Assembly: GCF_013214165.1 (NCBI RefSeq)
Contig: NZ_JABSSM010000021.1
Location: 62,001 to 126,000 of the forward strand
Origin: Shewanella sp.
GTDB taxonomy: Bacteria; Pseudomonadota; Gammaproteobacteria; Enterobacterales; Shewanellaceae
Direction of reading: 5' to 3'
Length of the DNA: 64,000 bases
Shown: positions 39,280 to 47,303 of the stretch, one piece after another
Layout of the letters: each line of letters starts with the position of its first letter
Numbering within the stretch: the stretch's first letter is position 1
Notes under the pieces: model-generated
Told to the model about the DNA's origin: nothing
What the model saw: only the letters and a program-made list of their open reading frames with translations
Database searches by the model: none
Translations under genes and position numbers: made by a program

Positions 39280-39837
39280 ATGAGTAAAATCGTCGTAATT
39301 TCAGGTCATCCTAATCTTAATTAGTCGATGGCAAATTCAAAAATCATCCATATACTCGGCTCATTAAATAAAACTCATGTACATTGACTCGATGAGTTAT
39401 ATCAGATTACAAGATTGATATTGCAACGGAGCAGGCCGCGCTGATAGACGCCAATCTGGTGATTTTCAATTCCCTCTCTACTGGTCGACTTATCCGGCCA
39501 TAATGAAAAATGGTTCGATGATGTATTCACCTATAACTTCGCCTTCGGTCCATAGGGAGATAAGTTAAAGAACAAGAAAGTGATACTGTCAATCACGGCT
39601 AGCGCAACGGCAGAGTCTTATAGCGAAGGAGATTTTAACTTTATGCCTCTGGACGACTATCTGGAATCGGCACTTCACCCACTCAAGCAGCCCAAGCAAA
39701 CATAATCGATAGCATAGTAAGCTTTAACATGAACTCAGACATCAATGAAGGCGGCAGTATCGTATACCGTCAACCGCCTTGTCGTCGAACTCGCAGATAG
39801 AGTTAAGGCGAACATATCACAAACGATTAATAGCTGA
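39280..39837 (+). pseudogene. Decayed NAD(P)H quinone oxidoreductase (Flavodoxin_2 family)
   Basis: Starts like an intact gene (ATGAGTAAAATCGTCG: MSKIVVISGHPNLN), then TAG. Frame-jumping translation recovers LDELY, DYKIDIATEQAALIDANLVI, FPLYWSTYPAIM, KWFDDVFTYNFAFGP and GDKLKNKKVILSITASATAE, the KefF/MdaB-type flavodoxin-fold order. There are at least three stops and two frameshifts and the protein cannot be made. The flanking 380 and 250 bases carry no gene that I recognise. Confidence 0.85.
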
Positions 39838-40086: not shown

Positions 40087-40875
40087 TTAGAGATCCTTTA
40101 TGTTGAGCTGCTGATAGGTCACGCCATTATTCAGGGTAACCACACAAGAACCGCCAATGTTTTTAAGCTGAGCACACGCCTGCGTGGCCTGCTTTTTCTT
40201 GCTGAACTGACCGACTTTTATTCTAAAGTAAGTTTTGCCCTTTACACTAGCCCGTTCATAGGTAGGCGTTACCCCTTCTAGCGCTGACGCATACTTTTTT
40301 TGTAACTTAAGCCAAAATGATTCAATCACCCATGGATTGGTAACCGAAGATAATTGCAGCGCATATTTACCACCTAGATGGCCGTTGGCAAGAAAGCCAT
40401 TCTTGGATGCCAAGCTTACCTCAATGGGTTGCTCGGGCGCCGAAGGGTATGCCGCTGCCGTTTGCACCTTAGGCTGCTGCGAGGCGGGCTCACTCACGGC
40501 GATGACATCTGGAGTAGGTTCTTGGGCCTGCTTAACATCAATCAACACAGGTTTTTCAACGGCCTGCATCATCTCGACTGCAGGCTCTAATTCAGGCTCT
40601 AATGCAGGAGCTAATTCAGGGTCTTCGACCATGGCACCAAGTTGAACGATCAACTCTTTCAAGTCGCTCTCGATCACCACCAAACGAGCCACGCTGGGCT
40701 GCATCAATTGCCATTCGGCCATGCCTTTCTCAAGGCTATCGACCCTAGTCACTATCTCTTGTTGCTGAGTATCTAGCCTTTGGGTGTCGTCGGCCTGCTT
40801 AGTTGAGCTGACACACCCCGTCAAAGTGATGAACAAGCTCAAAAGCAATATGAAATTTGTACTCGCAATATTCAT
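40087..40875 (-). CDS. SPOR-domain lipoprotein of the fimbrial cluster
   Basis: 262 residues from the ATG at 40875. The lipoprotein signal is MNIASTNFILLLSLFITLTGC, with the lipobox cysteine at residue 21. A coiled segment (VDSLEKGMAEWQLMQPSVARLVV) precedes a Glu/Pro-rich linker (about 85-170) and a C-terminal SPOR domain (about 180-260: GKYALQLSSVTNP...TYFRIKVGQFSKKKQATQAC). SPOR domains bind denuded glycan at septa. The coiled segment matches that of the exported SPOR protein at 46.5-47.3 kb, so the two are paralogues. Last gene of the cluster, 215 bases after the usher gene. Confidence 0.82.
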   Translation of the reverse strand: MNIASTNFILLLSLFITLTGCVSSTKQADDTQRLDTQQQEIVTRVDSLEKGMAEWQLMQPSVARLVVIESDLKELIVQLGAMVEDPELAPALEPELEPAVEMMQAVEKPVLIDVKQAQEPTPDVIAVSEPASQQPKVQTAAAYPSAPEQPIEVSLASKNGFLANGHLGGKYALQLSSVTNPWVIESFWLKLQKKYASALEGVTPTYERASVKGKTYFRIKVGQFSKKKQATQACAQLKNIGGSCVVTLNNGVTYQQLNIKDL

Positions 40876-41089
40876 GTTAAATAGAATCACCCAAAACTCA
40901 TCATGTTAAGCAAAGCTTCCGTTACCTGATACAACATCAGGACCAGAAACTAATATCCATTAAGCCTGTAAAAATAGTCCCTAGTAACAACATAGGGTTA
41001 AAGCACGCTACATCATAAATGAAATGGACAAGCTATTATAGTGATACGGCTGGCATTAATGCTCTGTCAGTGGAAATCGCCACTCACCC

Positions 41090-44000
41090 CTAGAGCTCAA
41101 ATTCGAAGGCCTCAACATTACAATAAAGTCCGGCAGCGGCTAGGCTTTGGCAACTATTTTGAGCTTGAACAGACTCTTTATAAAATGCCACATTTAGCAT
41201 ATATTTTTCGTTAGCTTCATTGAAAACATAAAAAGCCTCATATGTAAGTACGTTATCAGGGTTTCGGCGTACAATTCCCCAGTAGGTTTTAAGAATATCT
41301 AACGAGTGAAAATCACCAAGATTAACCACATAGCCTTTGGCAAACTGTATCTGATCTAGGGTAAAATCGGCGCCATTAATAATATCACCGCTCGCCTTAA
41401 AACTCAGCTCAAGCTCATCAGCCCCATGTAGCTTTTTACGACTGATATAGCTGGAATCGATGGACGCACGATAGTGTCCCGGCAAGAGATCGGTAAACAG
41501 ATAGTAACCATCAAATTCAGTTTCTGCCGTAGCAATAAGTTTATCATTGTCATCTACAAGATTGACTGTCACGTAGGCGGCAGGCTTCTCGGTACCCATA
41601 GCATTCTTAACATATACGGTCCCTTCCAGTTCACTGGCGGTTACTACCGGGAAATCCATCACCTCAATGGATCCTTTGCGCGGGGTAATAGAAATCCCTG
41701 GAATCGCCGGCAGTAAGAAGGGATCATCAAAGCTATCTCGATCGAGAACAATATCGGTAGTCAAGTTATTCTGCATACCTTGGAGCATGGCTACCCCATT
41801 TTCATTACTCAAGGCCTGCCGATGGCTCTGCAACCCTTTAACCTTAGCACCTTCTACAATTGGCTCACCCTCATCAAACACACCATTAGCATTTTCATCT
41901 TCGAATACCCTTACCATCATGGATCCCTGATTGGCAAGTGAGTGACGGCTAGTAAAGAATTGACTTGTGATAGGTTCATAGCCAAAGCTGAATCGATAAT
42001 TAACGGCTATTGACCAGTCACCATCATCGTCATAGTTAATATTACTATTAAGGCTGTATTTTTCTTCGTGCCAAGTAAGCCCAAGCTCGGTGTTGTACTT
42101 GTCCGTAATGGGGAAAAAGTCTAGGCTTAACTCTGATTGCAACTGTGATGTTATCGGGATGTAAGAATCCAAACTTAGTATAGTGAGCTCACTCTCAGGG
42201 CTTAATCGGTAACCGGCACTGAAACGGGTTGATACGCGTCCAAAGCTTCTTTGCAAGCGTAAGTTGCCTGTAATCCTTTCATTTTCATCTAATTGACTCA
42301 CACTCTGATACCAAGACAGCTTATTATTAACCAACATGCCATAAGAGTTAAACGTCACTTGCTGAGTTACCGAATCTCGACGTGTGCCAGTGTTCGACAG
42401 AAAGTGATTCCAATTAGTTTGGTAGCTGAGAGGCAGAGCTGAGTCAGCAAATAATCGTCCTGACAAATTTAAATCATATTGATTGGTTTCTGAATCCTGC
42501 AAAATATTATCGGGTAAATTTGTTTGTCGCCAGTTATAACGTAAACCTAAAGAATGATCGCCAATACGAGTTCGTGCCGAGAACAATCCCTGCTGAACAG
42601 CATCTGGTTCAATTTCATAACTGGCTTGTAATAGCAAATTATCAAACAGACTCATATTACTACCTAATGAATAACTCTGCTTATCATCCCCATCTTTAGC
42701 GAGCATACTGGCATGACCCAAGCTAAAAGAAAGCCAATCAGTGACCCCCTGTTGGTATAATCCGGATACCAACCAGCCTTGATGTCCTACTTTGCCGAGC
42801 CCTGAAATACCAAATAGGCTCTTCCCCACCTCAGTGACAGACACACCATAATTACTCTCTTTGGACGTTAAAGCATTGCTATTCACAAATACCTGTTTGC
42901 TCTTGGTCTCCACCTGCCCCTGGGGGCCGTAAAAAATCATCTCAAACTGGTTATCACCAAATAATAACTCGATGTCGTTAAATTCATAACGGCCATTTTT
43001 CAAACTGAGCTGACTCGCTATAAATAGTCCATTTCGGTATAACTCTATGTCCCATCCAGGCTGAATATCACCGTTTAGATTTATTTTGTCATGATCAACA
43101 ACACGGCCGATATCATAATTAGAAAAACGTCCTCCACGACTTAAGCCGCCGGTATTGCCAATGCCAGCGTTTACCGGCGTGATATCGCCTAATTGATATT
43201 GTGTTGCACGCAATGGCCCTAATAAATCTGCTTTAGTAGATTCTTTTGTCAATTTCAAGCGAAGATCGGATATAATATCCGCATCATTACCCCCCATATA
43301 GTATTCGGCATTTAGGTAAGCTAAATCCTGACTTCCCAGTACAGAATAACCTCCGACCAGGCCATTATTAGAGGTACTGCCATAGAGTTGAACATCAACC
43401 AAGGGATGGGAGTATGCCTGATAGGTAGACTCACGCCAGGGGAGTACGGCTATGTTGCTATACGTTGAGCGTGTAGAGCTTTTTCTATTTTTTCTTGCCC
43501 AGCGCCGCTGTACGGGTAAAGGTGTTTCCGGATGTAATTTTAAGGTAAGGTCAACAAAATCGAATTCCATGCCAATGCCAAACCAGTCTGAGAGTATATC
43601 GGCGTCTATATATAAGTCATCGCTTTCAGAACGTAAACTCTGGCTACTGATCACACTAGATTGACCATTGATTATGACCTGTGCAGGTGCAGTCTCAGAA
43701 CTCAGCTCTTCGGGCCAGGTAAGCAGGAAATGTCGATCCTCACTGATAAACCACCCCTCAGCTCTGCGTTGCTCAAGGTCTACCTCAATAGGAAAATCAA
43801 GTAACTCAAGTAGCCCCATAAGCCCCAGTTGAGCATCTTCAGCACTCTTAAAGGCAAAGACTTCAGATAGTGCAATCTTGTCCACAGATAAAGACAGTAA
43901 TAGTTCTTCACCAACGGGAATACGCACCACCGACTCAGAGGCAACAGCAACTTCCGATAGGATGATTTCATCAGTACGCTGATATTGCAAACCGATACGT

Positions 44001-44251
44001 TTTAGCAGTAACTGAACCTTAGGGTTGGTGAGTTTATTAGCAACTGAACTATCGACTGCGGCCTGCAGTGGCCCATGGGTTACTGTTGCCAAGAACAAAA
44101 TCCCAAAAGCCAACATTTTAAACATCAAAACGCTGGAAGCTGAAATAGCAATAAACGCTTTGGACCTAGCCCGGAAGGCATGGGTGACCAAGGTCTTGAC
44201 CCAAGGCTGGGTCAAGACATAAAACCGAAGAGGTAAAGCGCCGATTCGCAT
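41090..44251 (-). CDS. Divergent fimbrial usher with C-terminal SPOR-like domain
   Basis: 1053 residues. An N-terminal region (70-250) precedes a beta-barrel rich in alternating strands (about 270-760), which contains the usher-like stretch GDIQPGWDIELYRNGLFIASQ and FYGPQGQVETKSKQVFVN. Then come carboxypeptidase-like Ig domains (VFEDENANGVFDEGEPIVEGAKV and GYYLFTDLLPGHYRASID). The last 90 residues (FAKGYVVNLGDFHSLDILKTYW...LNVAFYKESVQAQNSCQSL) read as a SPOR fold. The signal peptide is MLAFGILFLATVTHGPLQAA, so translation may start at the ATG at 44125 or 44116; the extra 42 residues overlap an 11-bp hairpin. Follows the chaperone gene by 27 bases. Confidence 0.82.
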   Translation of the reverse strand: MRIGALPLRFYVLTQPWVKTLVTHAFRARSKAFIAISASSVLMFKMLAFGILFLATVTHGPLQAAVDSSVANKLTNPKVQLLLKRIGLQYQRTDEIILSEVAVASESVVRIPVGEELLLSLSVDKIALSEVFAFKSAEDAQLGLMGLLELLDFPIEVDLEQRRAEGWFISEDRHFLLTWPEELSSETAPAQVIINGQSSVISSQSLRSESDDLYIDADILSDWFGIGMEFDFVDLTLKLHPETPLPVQRRWARKNRKSSTRSTYSNIAVLPWRESTYQAYSHPLVDVQLYGSTSNNGLVGGYSVLGSQDLAYLNAEYYMGGNDADIISDLRLKLTKESTKADLLGPLRATQYQLGDITPVNAGIGNTGGLSRGGRFSNYDIGRVVDHDKINLNGDIQPGWDIELYRNGLFIASQLSLKNGRYEFNDIELLFGDNQFEMIFYGPQGQVETKSKQVFVNSNALTSKESNYGVSVTEVGKSLFGISGLGKVGHQGWLVSGLYQQGVTDWLSFSLGHASMLAKDGDDKQSYSLGSNMSLFDNLLLQASYEIEPDAVQQGLFSARTRIGDHSLGLRYNWRQTNLPDNILQDSETNQYDLNLSGRLFADSALPLSYQTNWNHFLSNTGTRRDSVTQQVTFNSYGMLVNNKLSWYQSVSQLDENERITGNLRLQRSFGRVSTRFSAGYRLSPESELTILSLDSYIPITSQLQSELSLDFFPITDKYNTELGLTWHEEKYSLNSNINYDDDGDWSIAVNYRFSFGYEPITSQFFTSRHSLANQGSMMVRVFEDENANGVFDEGEPIVEGAKVKGLQSHRQALSNENGVAMLQGMQNNLTTDIVLDRDSFDDPFLLPAIPGISITPRKGSIEVMDFPVVTASELEGTVYVKNAMGTEKPAAYVTVNLVDDNDKLIATAETEFDGYYLFTDLLPGHYRASIDSSYISRKKLHGADELELSFKASGDIINGADFTLDQIQFAKGYVVNLGDFHSLDILKTYWGIVRRNPDNVLTYEAFYVFNEANEKYMLNVAFYKESVQAQNSCQSLAAAGLYCNVEAFEFEL
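44193..44218. repeat. 11-bp perfect hairpin near the usher 5' end
   Basis: GTCTTGACCCA-AGGC-TGGGTCAAGAC folds into a strong stem. It lies inside the uncertain N-terminal extension of the usher ORF, about 70 bases before the alternative ATG. It could limit usher expression relative to the chaperone, or be part of a small repeated element. No T tract on either side. Confidence 0.6.
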
Positions 44252-44278
44252 AAAAAATCTAACTCGAAAATTTATTCA

Positions 44279-45121
44279 TTATGGCACTGTCTTTATAGAA
44301 TCCAGAGTCACCAGTATCGATTTTTCAGCCAGCAGCACACCATTAAACTCTTTTACGCCCTCAAAGGCCAAGCGTAAGTTCCCTCTCGCTGGAGTATAAT
44401 CAGGCCAAGTTAACTGTATTTTATGCTGTGTAAGCTCAGGGTAAACTGTATAGCCGTGAACTCTTGCAACGATTTGTTCAGGAGCATCTTGAGACGGCTG
44501 CCAGTATGCAATAATATTACCGGTCACGGAATTACGGCCGCTATGGTTAAGCAGCGCCGTAATGGTTGCACGGGGGAATGTTTTCTCTTTTGCCAGCGTT
44601 ACACTAGTTAAAGCCACGCTCGCATCAATTTCGCCTTGGCGCACTATAATGGGGAGCGAGTAACTCATGACGACATTGAGTTTGATTCTGATTCCATTGA
44701 CATTACTAGACTCTGGTGATTTGGGCGGTAATGCTTTTAGTAATAAATGGGAGCGATACTCGCCATCTGCTAAGCCCTTTGGACGACGCACCGCAAGTCT
44801 AATGGTTTGGCGCTCATCGGGTTTGAGAGTCACCTGCTTAGGGCTAAAACGAATCATGCCGCTGGCCGTCGGAAAAGTCTTAGCTTCTTCCTCGGTTAGG
44901 TTATGATAACTACCATTTTCTAGTACTGATTTTTGCTGCCAGCTCAATCGATAAGTACGGGTTTCTTGGCCGGTATTAATTAAGACTAACGACGTGGAAC
45001 GCTCGCGGTCGTTAAGAGTAACCTGTGTTGGGGAAATAAGCAGGCTCGCCTGCAAGTAGCCCGAATGGCAACATATCAATATTAGCGAACACTTTATTAC
45101 TCGAAATAACAGACTATTCAT
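44279..45121 (-). CDS. Periplasmic fimbrial chaperone (PapD-like)
   Basis: 280 residues with signal peptide (cleavage near LQASLLISPT). First Ig domain: SPTQVTLNDRERSTSLVLINTG, then IRFSPKQVTLKPDERQTIRLAVRR, the chaperone G1 strand pattern in which alternating hydrophobic residues complete pilin subunits. A second Ig-like domain follows (about 155-275). Between a DUF4402 pilin gene and the usher gene. The sequence is far from FimC/PapD and closer to chaperones of unusual chaperone-usher systems. Confidence 0.88.
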   Translation of the reverse strand: MNSLLFRVIKCSLILICCHSGYLQASLLISPTQVTLNDRERSTSLVLINTGQETRTYRLSWQQKSVLENGSYHNLTEEEAKTFPTASGMIRFSPKQVTLKPDERQTIRLAVRRPKGLADGEYRSHLLLKALPPKSPESSNVNGIRIKLNVVMSYSLPIIVRQGEIDASVALTSVTLAKEKTFPRATITALLNHSGRNSVTGNIIAYWQPSQDAPEQIVARVHGYTVYPELTQHKIQLTWPDYTPARGNLRLAFEGVKEFNGVLLAEKSILVTLDSIKTVP

Positions 45122-45252
45122 CTCTTCCTCTTAAATTGGCAAAGTAGCTACCGCAAACATGACTTAAAATATATTAATATCAACAGATTAATGTCGACAT
45201 TTAAAATAATCATATGGTAATTAATGTAGGAGTAATTACATTATAATCATGG

Positions 45253-45729
45253 TTAATAATCGATGGTCATTAGCAAACGTGCCTGATATTCAGTATCAAT
45301 ATAATGGCCACGGGGATCTCCCGAGGACTGCAATGTGCCACCAATAAACACACTTGCCATACCATTACTATCGGTAACAACCGACGTGTCGGTTTTGACA
45401 CTGACCAAAGTGAACTGCTGTGTACCGAGCCCCGATGCAACCTGAGTCTGGGCCTGCATAACAGCAGCACCAATGGATAACATCTTATAGCTTGGATACT
45501 GGCTTAATGTGAACTCAGCGGCATGCCCTAGTGTTAACACCCGAAAATGTCGGCTAAAATCGATTTTGCCACTTGGTGTAACACTGATAGTGCCCACTGA
45601 AGAATTATCTATTATCACTATGGTACCGAAGTCAAGAGCCTGTTCGAGCTCCACGGCTGCTTGAGCCGAAGATACAAATAAACAGATTCCAAACAATAAC
45701 TTTATATTAGTGATTCGTATAAAATGCAT
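45253..45729 (-). CDS. DUF4402-type pilin-like subunit (short)
   Basis: 158 residues with signal peptide (FGICLFVSSAQA). The mature part starts AVELEQALDFGTIVI, the LDFGTI pattern typical of DUF4402 subunits, and ends in YQARLLMTIDY. The same layout occurs in the larger neighbour at 45.8-46.4 kb, so both are probably fibre components; this shorter one may be tip, adaptor or minor subunit. Beta-sandwich with no cysteines visible in the mature part. Lies 131 bases upstream of the chaperone gene. Confidence 0.82.
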   Translation of the reverse strand: MHFIRITNIKLLFGICLFVSSAQAAVELEQALDFGTIVIIDNSSVGTISVTPSGKIDFSRHFRVLTLGHAAEFTLSQYPSYKMLSIGAAVMQAQTQVASGLGTQQFTLVSVKTDTSVVTDSNGMASVFIGGTLQSSGDPRGHYIDTEYQARLLMTIDY

Positions 45730-45800
45730 TCAGCTCTCTTATGGTACGTAGAAGGCGTCGGTATACAAACCTGCCTTCTACATACGAAGTTCATTACAGG

Positions 45801-46421
45801 TTAGTACGATACGACGACATCAAAAGTACCAGTATAATCACCATCAACATAAGCAGTAATAGCCCCCTCAGTACCACGTTTGTCGGTTTTCAAGGTTGCA
45901 CCAACCGAAAAGGTAACATTACCTTCTGAATCAGCGGCTAGATTCTTAGCTGCATAGGCTTTTCCTTTGTTTGCACCAGATGTGATATAAGCCTCAAAAC
46001 CACTTAAAAGAAAATTAGATGTTTCACTTGGCGCTGAAGCAGCCTTAAGTGTGACGGCATCATCAGCTGGAAGCGTAAGCTCCAGTTTTGAGAATGGTGC
46101 GACTTTAGCTATGGTATAAGTCGCTGCAGCACCATCAACAATAACCTGTGCCGAAGCCTTTACTTTACTGTCAGCTGAAGGGCTATCGCCATTCGCATAG
46201 ATTGTAACCGTAGCAACTTCAGCAGTAGCAGTAGCAGTGCCGATATCTGAAGTGACACGAATAGTACCGAAGTCAATTCCAGTTACTTGCGCCAGATCAA
46301 AAGCATTTTGGACTTTTACAGTCGCCGTAGAGGGCGCAGTTTCTTCAGCTGTAGCTTGAGTTGAACCCGCCGCTAACAAAGCAATGGCAATAACTTTAGA
46401 TAATGTTTTTACGTTAGTCAT
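45801..46421 (-). CDS. DUF4402-type pilin-like subunit (long, probable major)
   Basis: 206 residues. Signal peptide VIAIALLAAGSTQATA; the mature protein has the subunit motif FDLAQVTGIDFGTIRVT, an alanine/threonine-rich core, the block FSVGATLKTDKRGTEG and a C-terminal YTGTFDVVVSY. The terminal aromatic and alternating hydrophobics fit a subunit captured by a chaperone. First pilin gene of the cluster, hence probably the major subunit. No cysteines in the mature part. Confidence 0.84.
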   Translation of the reverse strand: MTNVKTLSKVIAIALLAAGSTQATAEETAPSTATVKVQNAFDLAQVTGIDFGTIRVTSDIGTATATAEVATVTIYANGDSPSADSKVKASAQVIVDGAAATYTIAKVAPFSKLELTLPADDAVTLKAASAPSETSNFLLSGFEAYITSGANKGKAYAAKNLAADSEGNVTFSVGATLKTDKRGTEGAITAYVDGDYTGTFDVVVSY

Positions 46422-46544
46422 AATTTTATTCCGTATATGAATTTATATTCTGTCGACAATTTTCTTTACGTTAAAATCCATCTCTAATGAGACTTACTTT
46501 GTTATCGACACGATAATACACAACTTTAATATTTATTTCTCTTA

Positions 46545-47303
46545 TTAGTAATATTTTATCATTGACTCTCCATTATATTTAACTGCTCGACAATATTGAT
46601 TAGATTTTTTCAGACCAGCACAGACTTCTTGAGCATGTTTTTTTGACTTAAAGACTCCGGCTAACAGCCTGCGATATCGAGTTTCACCCTTTATAATATC
46701 TGTTGAATATGGCAATAGGTCTTTCAATAGTCCCGGATATCTAGCTTGATAACTCAACCAACTAGACTGTACATTTTTCAGCCTAACAAATGATGCTAAA
46801 TGAATCGAAAATTGTTCGCCCTGCTCTACATTTGTCATTCGTGAGTCAATAAATGATTTAACATTAGTAACAACTAAATTATTTTCTGCTGCTTCATTTT
46901 GTGAAACTGACTTTTTTACAGATAGTTTAGATTGGCCATTAACTGTTTCTTTATTGACCACGAATATATCTTTTTCATTATTCAACTGTTCGGCTGTCGG
47001 GTTAGCCTTGAGCTTAGACATCTTGCTTAACTCAGTGATCAAAAACTCTAAATCAGCCTCACTACTCACTAACCGTTTAATGGCAGGGCGCAACTCTTTC
47101 CACTCTTCCCACTCTTTCAAGTGTTGCTCAAACTTCAAAGAAAGCGCTTCAAACCTTTGATTATCATATCTTTGAAGCGATACATCATCAGCAAAACAGT
47201 TGGAAAAACAGAAGCTGGCCAGCATAAACGCTGATAAACGCAAGCAGTGAAGATCAAACTGCTTAAATAATATTCGCTTAATGTTCTGGCTCATGTTAGC
47301 CAT
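46545..47303 (-). CDS. Exported SPOR-domain protein of the fimbrial cluster
   Basis: 252 residues from the ATG at 47303 (the track's TTG at 47342 is less likely). N-terminal hydrophobic signal (LSAFMLASFCFSNCFADDV), a coiled segment (FEQHLKEWEEWKELRPAIKRLV) and a C-terminal SPOR-type domain (about 165-250: GEQFSIHLASFVRLKNVQSSW...YRRLLAGVFKSKKHAQEVC). The coiled segment and SPOR domain match the lipoprotein at the other end of the cluster. The residue preceding cleavage is in FSNCFA, so lipidation is possible but not canonical. First gene of the cluster; its 5' region carries the CRP site. Confidence 0.8.
   Translation of the reverse strand: MANMSQNIKRILFKQFDLHCLRLSAFMLASFCFSNCFADDVSLQRYDNQRFEALSLKFEQHLKEWEEWKELRPAIKRLVSSEADLEFLITELSKMSKLKANPTAEQLNNEKDIFVVNKETVNGQSKLSVKKSVSQNEAAENNLVVTNVKSFIDSRMTNVEQGEQFSIHLASFVRLKNVQSSWLSYQARYPGLLKDLLPYSTDIIKGETRYRRLLAGVFKSKKHAQEVCAGLKKSNQYCRAVKYNGESMIKYY

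Follow-up and report, generated by a model that had tools for sequence, protein, structure and literature searches.

A chaperone-usher gene set with SPOR domains in Shewanella sp.: a fibre machine probably tied to the cell wall, possibly at division sites

The locus considered here occupies positions 40087-47303, on the minus strand, of a 64,000-nucleotide stretch of the Shewanella sp. contig NZ_JABSSM010000021.1 (the whole stretch is called the window below). A first-pass annotation, made from the letters alone, had read it as six consecutive genes of a chaperone-usher fibre system furnished with three SPOR domains. The open reading frame (ORF) listing confirmed six same-strand frames, separated by intergenic gaps of 27 to 199 bases, in the order S1 (an exported SPOR protein), subunit 1, subunit 2, chaperone, usher and lipoprotein; the S1 start at 47303 is an internal ATG, the ORF itself opening at a TTG and extending to 47342. 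Pfam recovered directly the two DUF4402 subunits, the PapD_N domain of the chaperone and the SPOR domain of the lipoprotein, in agreement with the identities first proposed. The features are as follows, with the evidence in brackets.

46545..47303, minus strand: S1, exported SPOR protein with a helical stem and a C-terminal SPOR domain (ORF; Pfam SPOR in homologues; hhalign with the lipoprotein)
46572..46823, minus strand: SPOR domain of S1, with His at the glycan-contacting Gln position and the Arg kept (alignments)
45801..46421, minus strand: DUF4402 subunit 1, probable polymerising pilin (Pfam DUF4402, 1.6e-5)
45253..45729, minus strand: DUF4402 subunit 2, probable tip or capping subunit (Pfam DUF4402, 1.1e-8)
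44279..45121, minus strand: PapD-like periplasmic chaperone (Pfam PapD_N, 1.6e-6)
41090..44251, minus strand: divergent predicted outer-membrane usher of 1053 amino acids with a C-terminal SPOR tail (AlphaFold2 (AF2) model; Foldseek to FimD/PapC)
41354..41926, minus strand: C-terminal immunoglobulin-like (Ig-like) domains of the usher (SdrD_B / carboxypeptidase-regulatory-like), in the place of the periplasmic C-terminal domains (SdrD_B 1.6e-13; strands in the model)
41096..41344, minus strand: SPOR tail of the usher, residues ~970-1052, with the glycan-site Gln and Arg replaced and an invariant C...C pair (hhalign; AF2; Foldseek; residue counts)
40087..40890, minus strand: SPOR lipoprotein, probably anchored in the outer membrane (lipobox LTGC, +2 Val) (ORF; Pfam SPOR)
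40138..40374, minus strand: SPOR domain of the lipoprotein, with conserved glycan-site Gln, Arg and Lys (Pfam SPOR, 8.1e-10)
40633..40740, minus strand: helical stem motif W...(K/Q)P....RL...E.DL..LI..L, common to the lipoprotein and S1 (alignments; hhalign)

The Pfam match of the chaperone covers its N-terminal domain, and none separate was obtained for the C-terminal domain. The subunits differ in what precedes their first conserved motif: a median of 25 residues after the end of the signal peptide in subunit 1, where the motif is FG(T/E), and a median of about 10 in subunit 2, whose N-terminal extension is short or missing (these counts are regular-expression-based, and many of the 103 loci examined were not scorable). 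Subunit 1 may thus carry a candidate donor strand, and subunit 2 may cap the tip.

The usher had been described as divergent, and it matched neither the Pfam Usher family PF00577 nor, by sequence search, any usher of the PDB; the PF00577 search gave no match anywhere in the genome to which the window belongs. Its AF2 model, built on 35 relatives, reached a predicted local distance difference test score (pLDDT) of 82.5 and retrieved FimD/PapC as best Foldseek matches (E 3.7e-26 to 1e-12). The template modelling scores (TM-scores) against FimD/PapC were about 0.4-0.57, values which reflect divergence and domain arrangement. Model and matches together agree with the usher architecture, defined by a 24-strand barrel, a plug and N- and C-terminal periplasmic domains, though not down to the exact number of strands, and the strands of the SdrD_B domain found by Pfam at residues 888-938 are also visible in the model. 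On this structural evidence the protein is an outer-membrane usher of predicted FimD/PapC fold. An NCBIfam match to CPR_pilus_PamR (E 0.0015, residues 382-464) lay far under the cut-off, recurred weakly in four ushers and was dropped.

Recognition of the usher and of its tail needed structure and profile-profile comparison because Pfam, NCBIfam and PDB sequence searches named neither. In the window protein, Pfam gives no SPOR call for the tail. With hhalign, the last 84 residues aligned with the SPOR profile of the lipoprotein (98.1% / 7.6e-14) and with a set of other SPOR domains (92.5% / 4.9e-7); a SPOR model drawn from the genome's non-pilus SPOR segments alone was too poor for calling any domain. 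Modelled by itself, the tail takes a beta-alpha-beta-beta-alpha-beta order (pLDDT 85.9), and the SPOR domains of CwlC and DedD head its PDB matches in Foldseek, with RlpA and DamX lower down; the best E-value is only 3.8e-3, so that the argument rests on the identity of the matches. Among relatives, 14/33 SPOR-candidate ushers give a Pfam SPOR match at E up to 0.01, those of genomes G419 and G129 carry one Pfam-called SPOR domain each, and rather remote members of the usher family have tails too, among them that of G187 (L090:7786-11400), which ends in two (Pfam 3.6e-17). Profile comparison, predicted structure and relatives concur that the usher tail is a SPOR fold, as the first-pass annotation had suspected; with S1, recognised through its homologues, and the lipoprotein, the count of three SPOR domains holds.

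The residues of these domains bear on what they might bind. RlpA touches denuded glycan through Gln270 and a patch of arginines, and that same Gln is also important in DamX and FtsN (PMC6895207). The lipoprotein keeps this Gln at 63/71 loci, and the alignment of its homologues, all of which (19/19) contain a Pfam SPOR domain, shows Q in 16/19, R in 16/19 and K or R in 19/19; the window protein is one of five SPOR matches in its genome (6.2e-10 genome-wide). Because the glycan-site Gln, Arg and Lys are conserved, its SPOR domain is a strong predicted wall-binding candidate, and the set would hold at least one such domain. The picture is different for the usher tails of this clade, in which the Gln position is Gln in 2/29, mostly Asn or Ser, and Leu or Ile stands at the Arg position in 29/29, with the Cys pair invariant (29/29). 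Since the fold and the Cys pair are kept and the Gln and Arg are lost, the tail is more likely a docking module than a glycan binder. As for S1, the SPOR domain of the window protein scores 18.9 bits, under the Pfam cut-off of 21 bits, the domain is found in 10/12 homologues, and the glycan Gln position, His in the window, is occupied by 8 His, 3 Gln and 1 Lys among 12. The glycan binding first attributed to the SPOR domains in general is therefore predicted from the residues for the lipoprotein only, having lost its residue basis in the usher tail and usually in S1.

S1 is probably soluble in the periplasm, to judge from a leader of the signal-peptidase-I type, and it aligns over its full length with the lipoprotein (hhalign 99.9% / 7e-37), the shared helical stem preceding the linker in both; by sequence, the two are paralogues. 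All three SPOR domains have the invariant Cys pair in common. One may imagine that these folds serve protein-protein contacts alone, S1, lipoprotein and usher tail building a scaffold in the periplasm that would gate the usher, or hold chaperone-subunit complexes in store, and never touch glycan. The disappearance of the Gln from the usher tail and S1 would fit such a scaffold, as would the structural roles suggested by the conserved Cys pairs and the helical stem, but the site residues retained in the lipoprotein are hard to explain without glycan binding, and we regard this explanation as unlikely. We give hardly any credit to the proposal, made at first for usher insertion, that the accessory proteins open the wall and so let the usher or the fibre through. 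RlpA and CwlC are indeed SPOR proteins that are wall enzymes; however, Pfam, NCBIfam and homologue domain searches of the six proteins found neither a hydrolase or transglycosylase domain nor any other catalytic one, and an usher, being located in the outer membrane, secretes away from the cell, so that its fibre need not cross the wall.

The gene set had been expected to recur if it were real, and it co-occurs both in the same genus and in other marine genera. A SPOR-tailed usher is present in 6/130 same-genus genomes, and the five carriers other than the window's own have the full six-gene order unchanged. The usher alignment gathered 412 relatives in named genomes, from which 79 loci were kept, belonging to Psychromonas, Thalassomonas, Paraglaciecola, Pseudoalteromonas, Rheinheimera, Bowmanella, Alteromonas, Ferrimonas, Marinomonas, Vibrio sp., Colwellia, Glaciecola and others, as well as to metagenome-assembled genomes of Desulfobacteraceae, and the same or a rearranged set occurs in dozens of other marine Gammaproteobacteria. 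Gene order is mostly constant (identical in Shewanella, Psychromonas, Thalassomonas, Pseudoalteromonas and others, and recurring in other families of the order), the Glaciecola-type loci being rearranged. Had a pilus operon merely come to lie beside unrelated SPOR genes, with a spurious tail on its usher, Pfam alone would seem to agree, as it places only one of the three SPOR domains of the window over its cut-off; the conserved order and the confirmed tail fold refute such a chance neighbourhood.

A separate SPOR gene is present in 88/97 loci whose usher has a SPOR tail detected by hidden Markov model (HMM). Of the 37 loci in which no tail was detected, 24 are free of neighbouring SPOR, FlgO and FlgT genes, and the remaining 13 mostly have usher tails that are SPOR-like by eye, or that are cut or masked in the record; likewise, where searches at the level of order, class and phylum met short tail-less ushers of the broad family, these were without SPOR neighbours. 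In gene content, the SPOR tail and the separate SPOR genes occur jointly. A tree of usher cores stripped of the tail requires at least 4 changes between tail presence and absence, a count that is approximate since the tree is a quick search with some long branches, and it places tail-less ushers between two SPOR-tailed groups; the distribution indicates more than one origin of the tail, or several losses. Ushers of ~1320-1350 amino acids with tails SPOR-like by eye also occur far outside Gammaproteobacteria, in metagenome-assembled genomes of Desulfobacteraceae/Desulfobacterales (L264, L265, L269). In Gayadomonas joobiniege (L243) the genes belong to a 770-kb replicon entered as plasmid pG7, a location that hints at mobility.

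The SPOR-tailed ushers have a second kind of companion. FlgO lipoproteins (PF17680, down to 2e-45) adjoin the usher in Pseudoalteromonas, Paraglaciecola and G129, and an FlgO HMM match is found in 56/97 loci with a SPOR-tailed usher. Such loci contain, over many marine genera, up to four FlgO-family genes, usually three (L210, L204, L197, L098 and others). In Paraglaciecola loci of the L197 type, FlgO lipoproteins occupy the usual place of S1, and in Paraglaciecola mesophila (L197:6534-7625) the stem motif of S1 and the lipoprotein is fused to an FlgO domain, which links the SPOR and FlgO accessories. FlgT-like lipoproteins occur in the G187 and G419 loci; the two-SPOR usher of G187 adjoins a glycine-zipper protein and lies near its FlgT-like lipoprotein. 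The window locus has neither FlgO nor FlgT, and its genome gave no FlgO match, though the same search finds FlgO in relatives. It is possible, if doubtful, that these loci make up a distinct class of cell-wall-coupled chaperone-usher machines, in which ushers would repeatedly have gained SPOR tails and, together with SPOR and FlgO-type lipoproteins, would form a periplasmic collar at the outer membrane tying assembly to septal or polar wall remodelling.

For the window itself, a link to peptidoglycan, as the first-pass annotation had proposed, is the most economical reading of three SPOR-fold domains that recur with a chaperone-usher set. We favour, with a probability of roughly 0.5, a chaperone-usher pilus with an assembly platform that the lipoprotein anchors to peptidoglycan, the usher tail docking in the periplasm. 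In this mechanism the chaperone would hand the DUF4402 subunits to the usher; subunit 2, apparently without an N-terminal donor strand, would probably form the tip, and subunit 1, with its candidate strand, would polymerise behind it. The SPOR domain of the lipoprotein would tie the platform to peptidoglycan, and the periplasmic SPOR tail of the usher, placed after the Ig-like domains, would most likely have the lipoprotein or the paralogous S1 as its docking partner, in which case the link between usher and wall would be indirect. The result would be a load-bearing platform, maybe enriched where denuded glycan abounds, at the septum and new poles. The docking, the wall tether and any septal placement are what we infer from the gene set, the domain folds, their conservation, the paralogy and the pattern of kept and lost residues.

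Several points weigh against this tethered pilus. That the usher tail is without Gln and Arg could also signal degeneration; the loci are a non-random sample, fetched by a SPOR-tailed query and leaning to relatives of that kind; and a few of the species may weigh double, since the two collections overlap. The SPOR domains might also be addresses and not anchors, as the first-pass annotation mainly proposed, bringing the usher to the septum or to newly formed poles for display of the fibre. The denuded glycan recognised by SPOR domains is enriched at the septum (PMC6895207), and the lipoprotein keeps the binding residues; yet the SPOR tail of the usher itself is without them, and the different SPOR subtypes found on separate usher lineages fit anchoring equally well. 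We consider the address reading possible but doubtful.

It is worth comparing the proposed platform with better-known systems. Like the type 1 and P pili assembled by FimD and PapC, the window system has a PapD-like chaperone, an usher with a barrel, an N-terminal domain and C-terminal Ig-like domains according to the model, and small subunits, of which one seems to bear an N-terminal extension that the other lacks; it differs in an usher that escapes PF00577 and PDB sequence searches, in the extra SPOR tail, in two SPOR accessories and in DUF4402 subunits. With FtsN, DamX, DedD and RlpA it shares the SPOR fold and, in the lipoprotein, a lipobox-linker-SPOR layout with glycan-site residues, but its SPOR proteins lie in a pilus operon and have no recognised catalytic or divisome-activating domain, and the usher tail is without the glycan-site residues. 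As to the flagellar outer-membrane proteins FlgO and FlgT, lipoproteins of the FlgO family, often three, accompany SPOR-tailed ushers in many relatives and FlgT-like lipoproteins accompany a few, whereas the window locus has neither. Closest at hand is a SPOR-less DUF4402 chaperone-usher system in the window's own genome (L023:7575-12710, on G000:C102), beside ruvABC/aspS and found at the same site in several same-genus genomes: it has DUF4402 subunits, a chaperone and a related usher (~25% identity), but that usher stops after the Ig-like domains, with no SPOR tail and no SPOR genes nearby. In the open-access literature we found no description of a SPOR-linked, FlgO-linked or FlgT-linked chaperone-usher set, and nothing on DUF4402. 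By predicted structure the secretion core is ordinary, and the wall coupling is what would be new.

Around the locus, no RNA elements were found at the gathering threshold, and a scan returned 31 promoter-like sites against 19.9 expected and 6 terminator-like sites against 7.1 expected, numbers that are uninformative in AT-rich DNA. Directly downstream, at 39280-39720, lies a decayed frame with several stops that resembles a flavodoxin-like NAD(P)H oxidoreductase (identity judged by eye from the translation).

To our knowledge, the well-studied ushers are not linked to peptidoglycan, and we are aware of little understanding of how pilus platforms are positioned or resist pulling forces. The genes described here suggest a fibre machine that probably is fastened to the wall, perhaps where cells divide, with the wall link built into the usher itself and recurring over many marine genera. 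Such a machine would give SPOR domains a use outside cell division, where they are known, and would connect the FlgO lipoproteins, familiar from flagella, with a second type of surface appendage.

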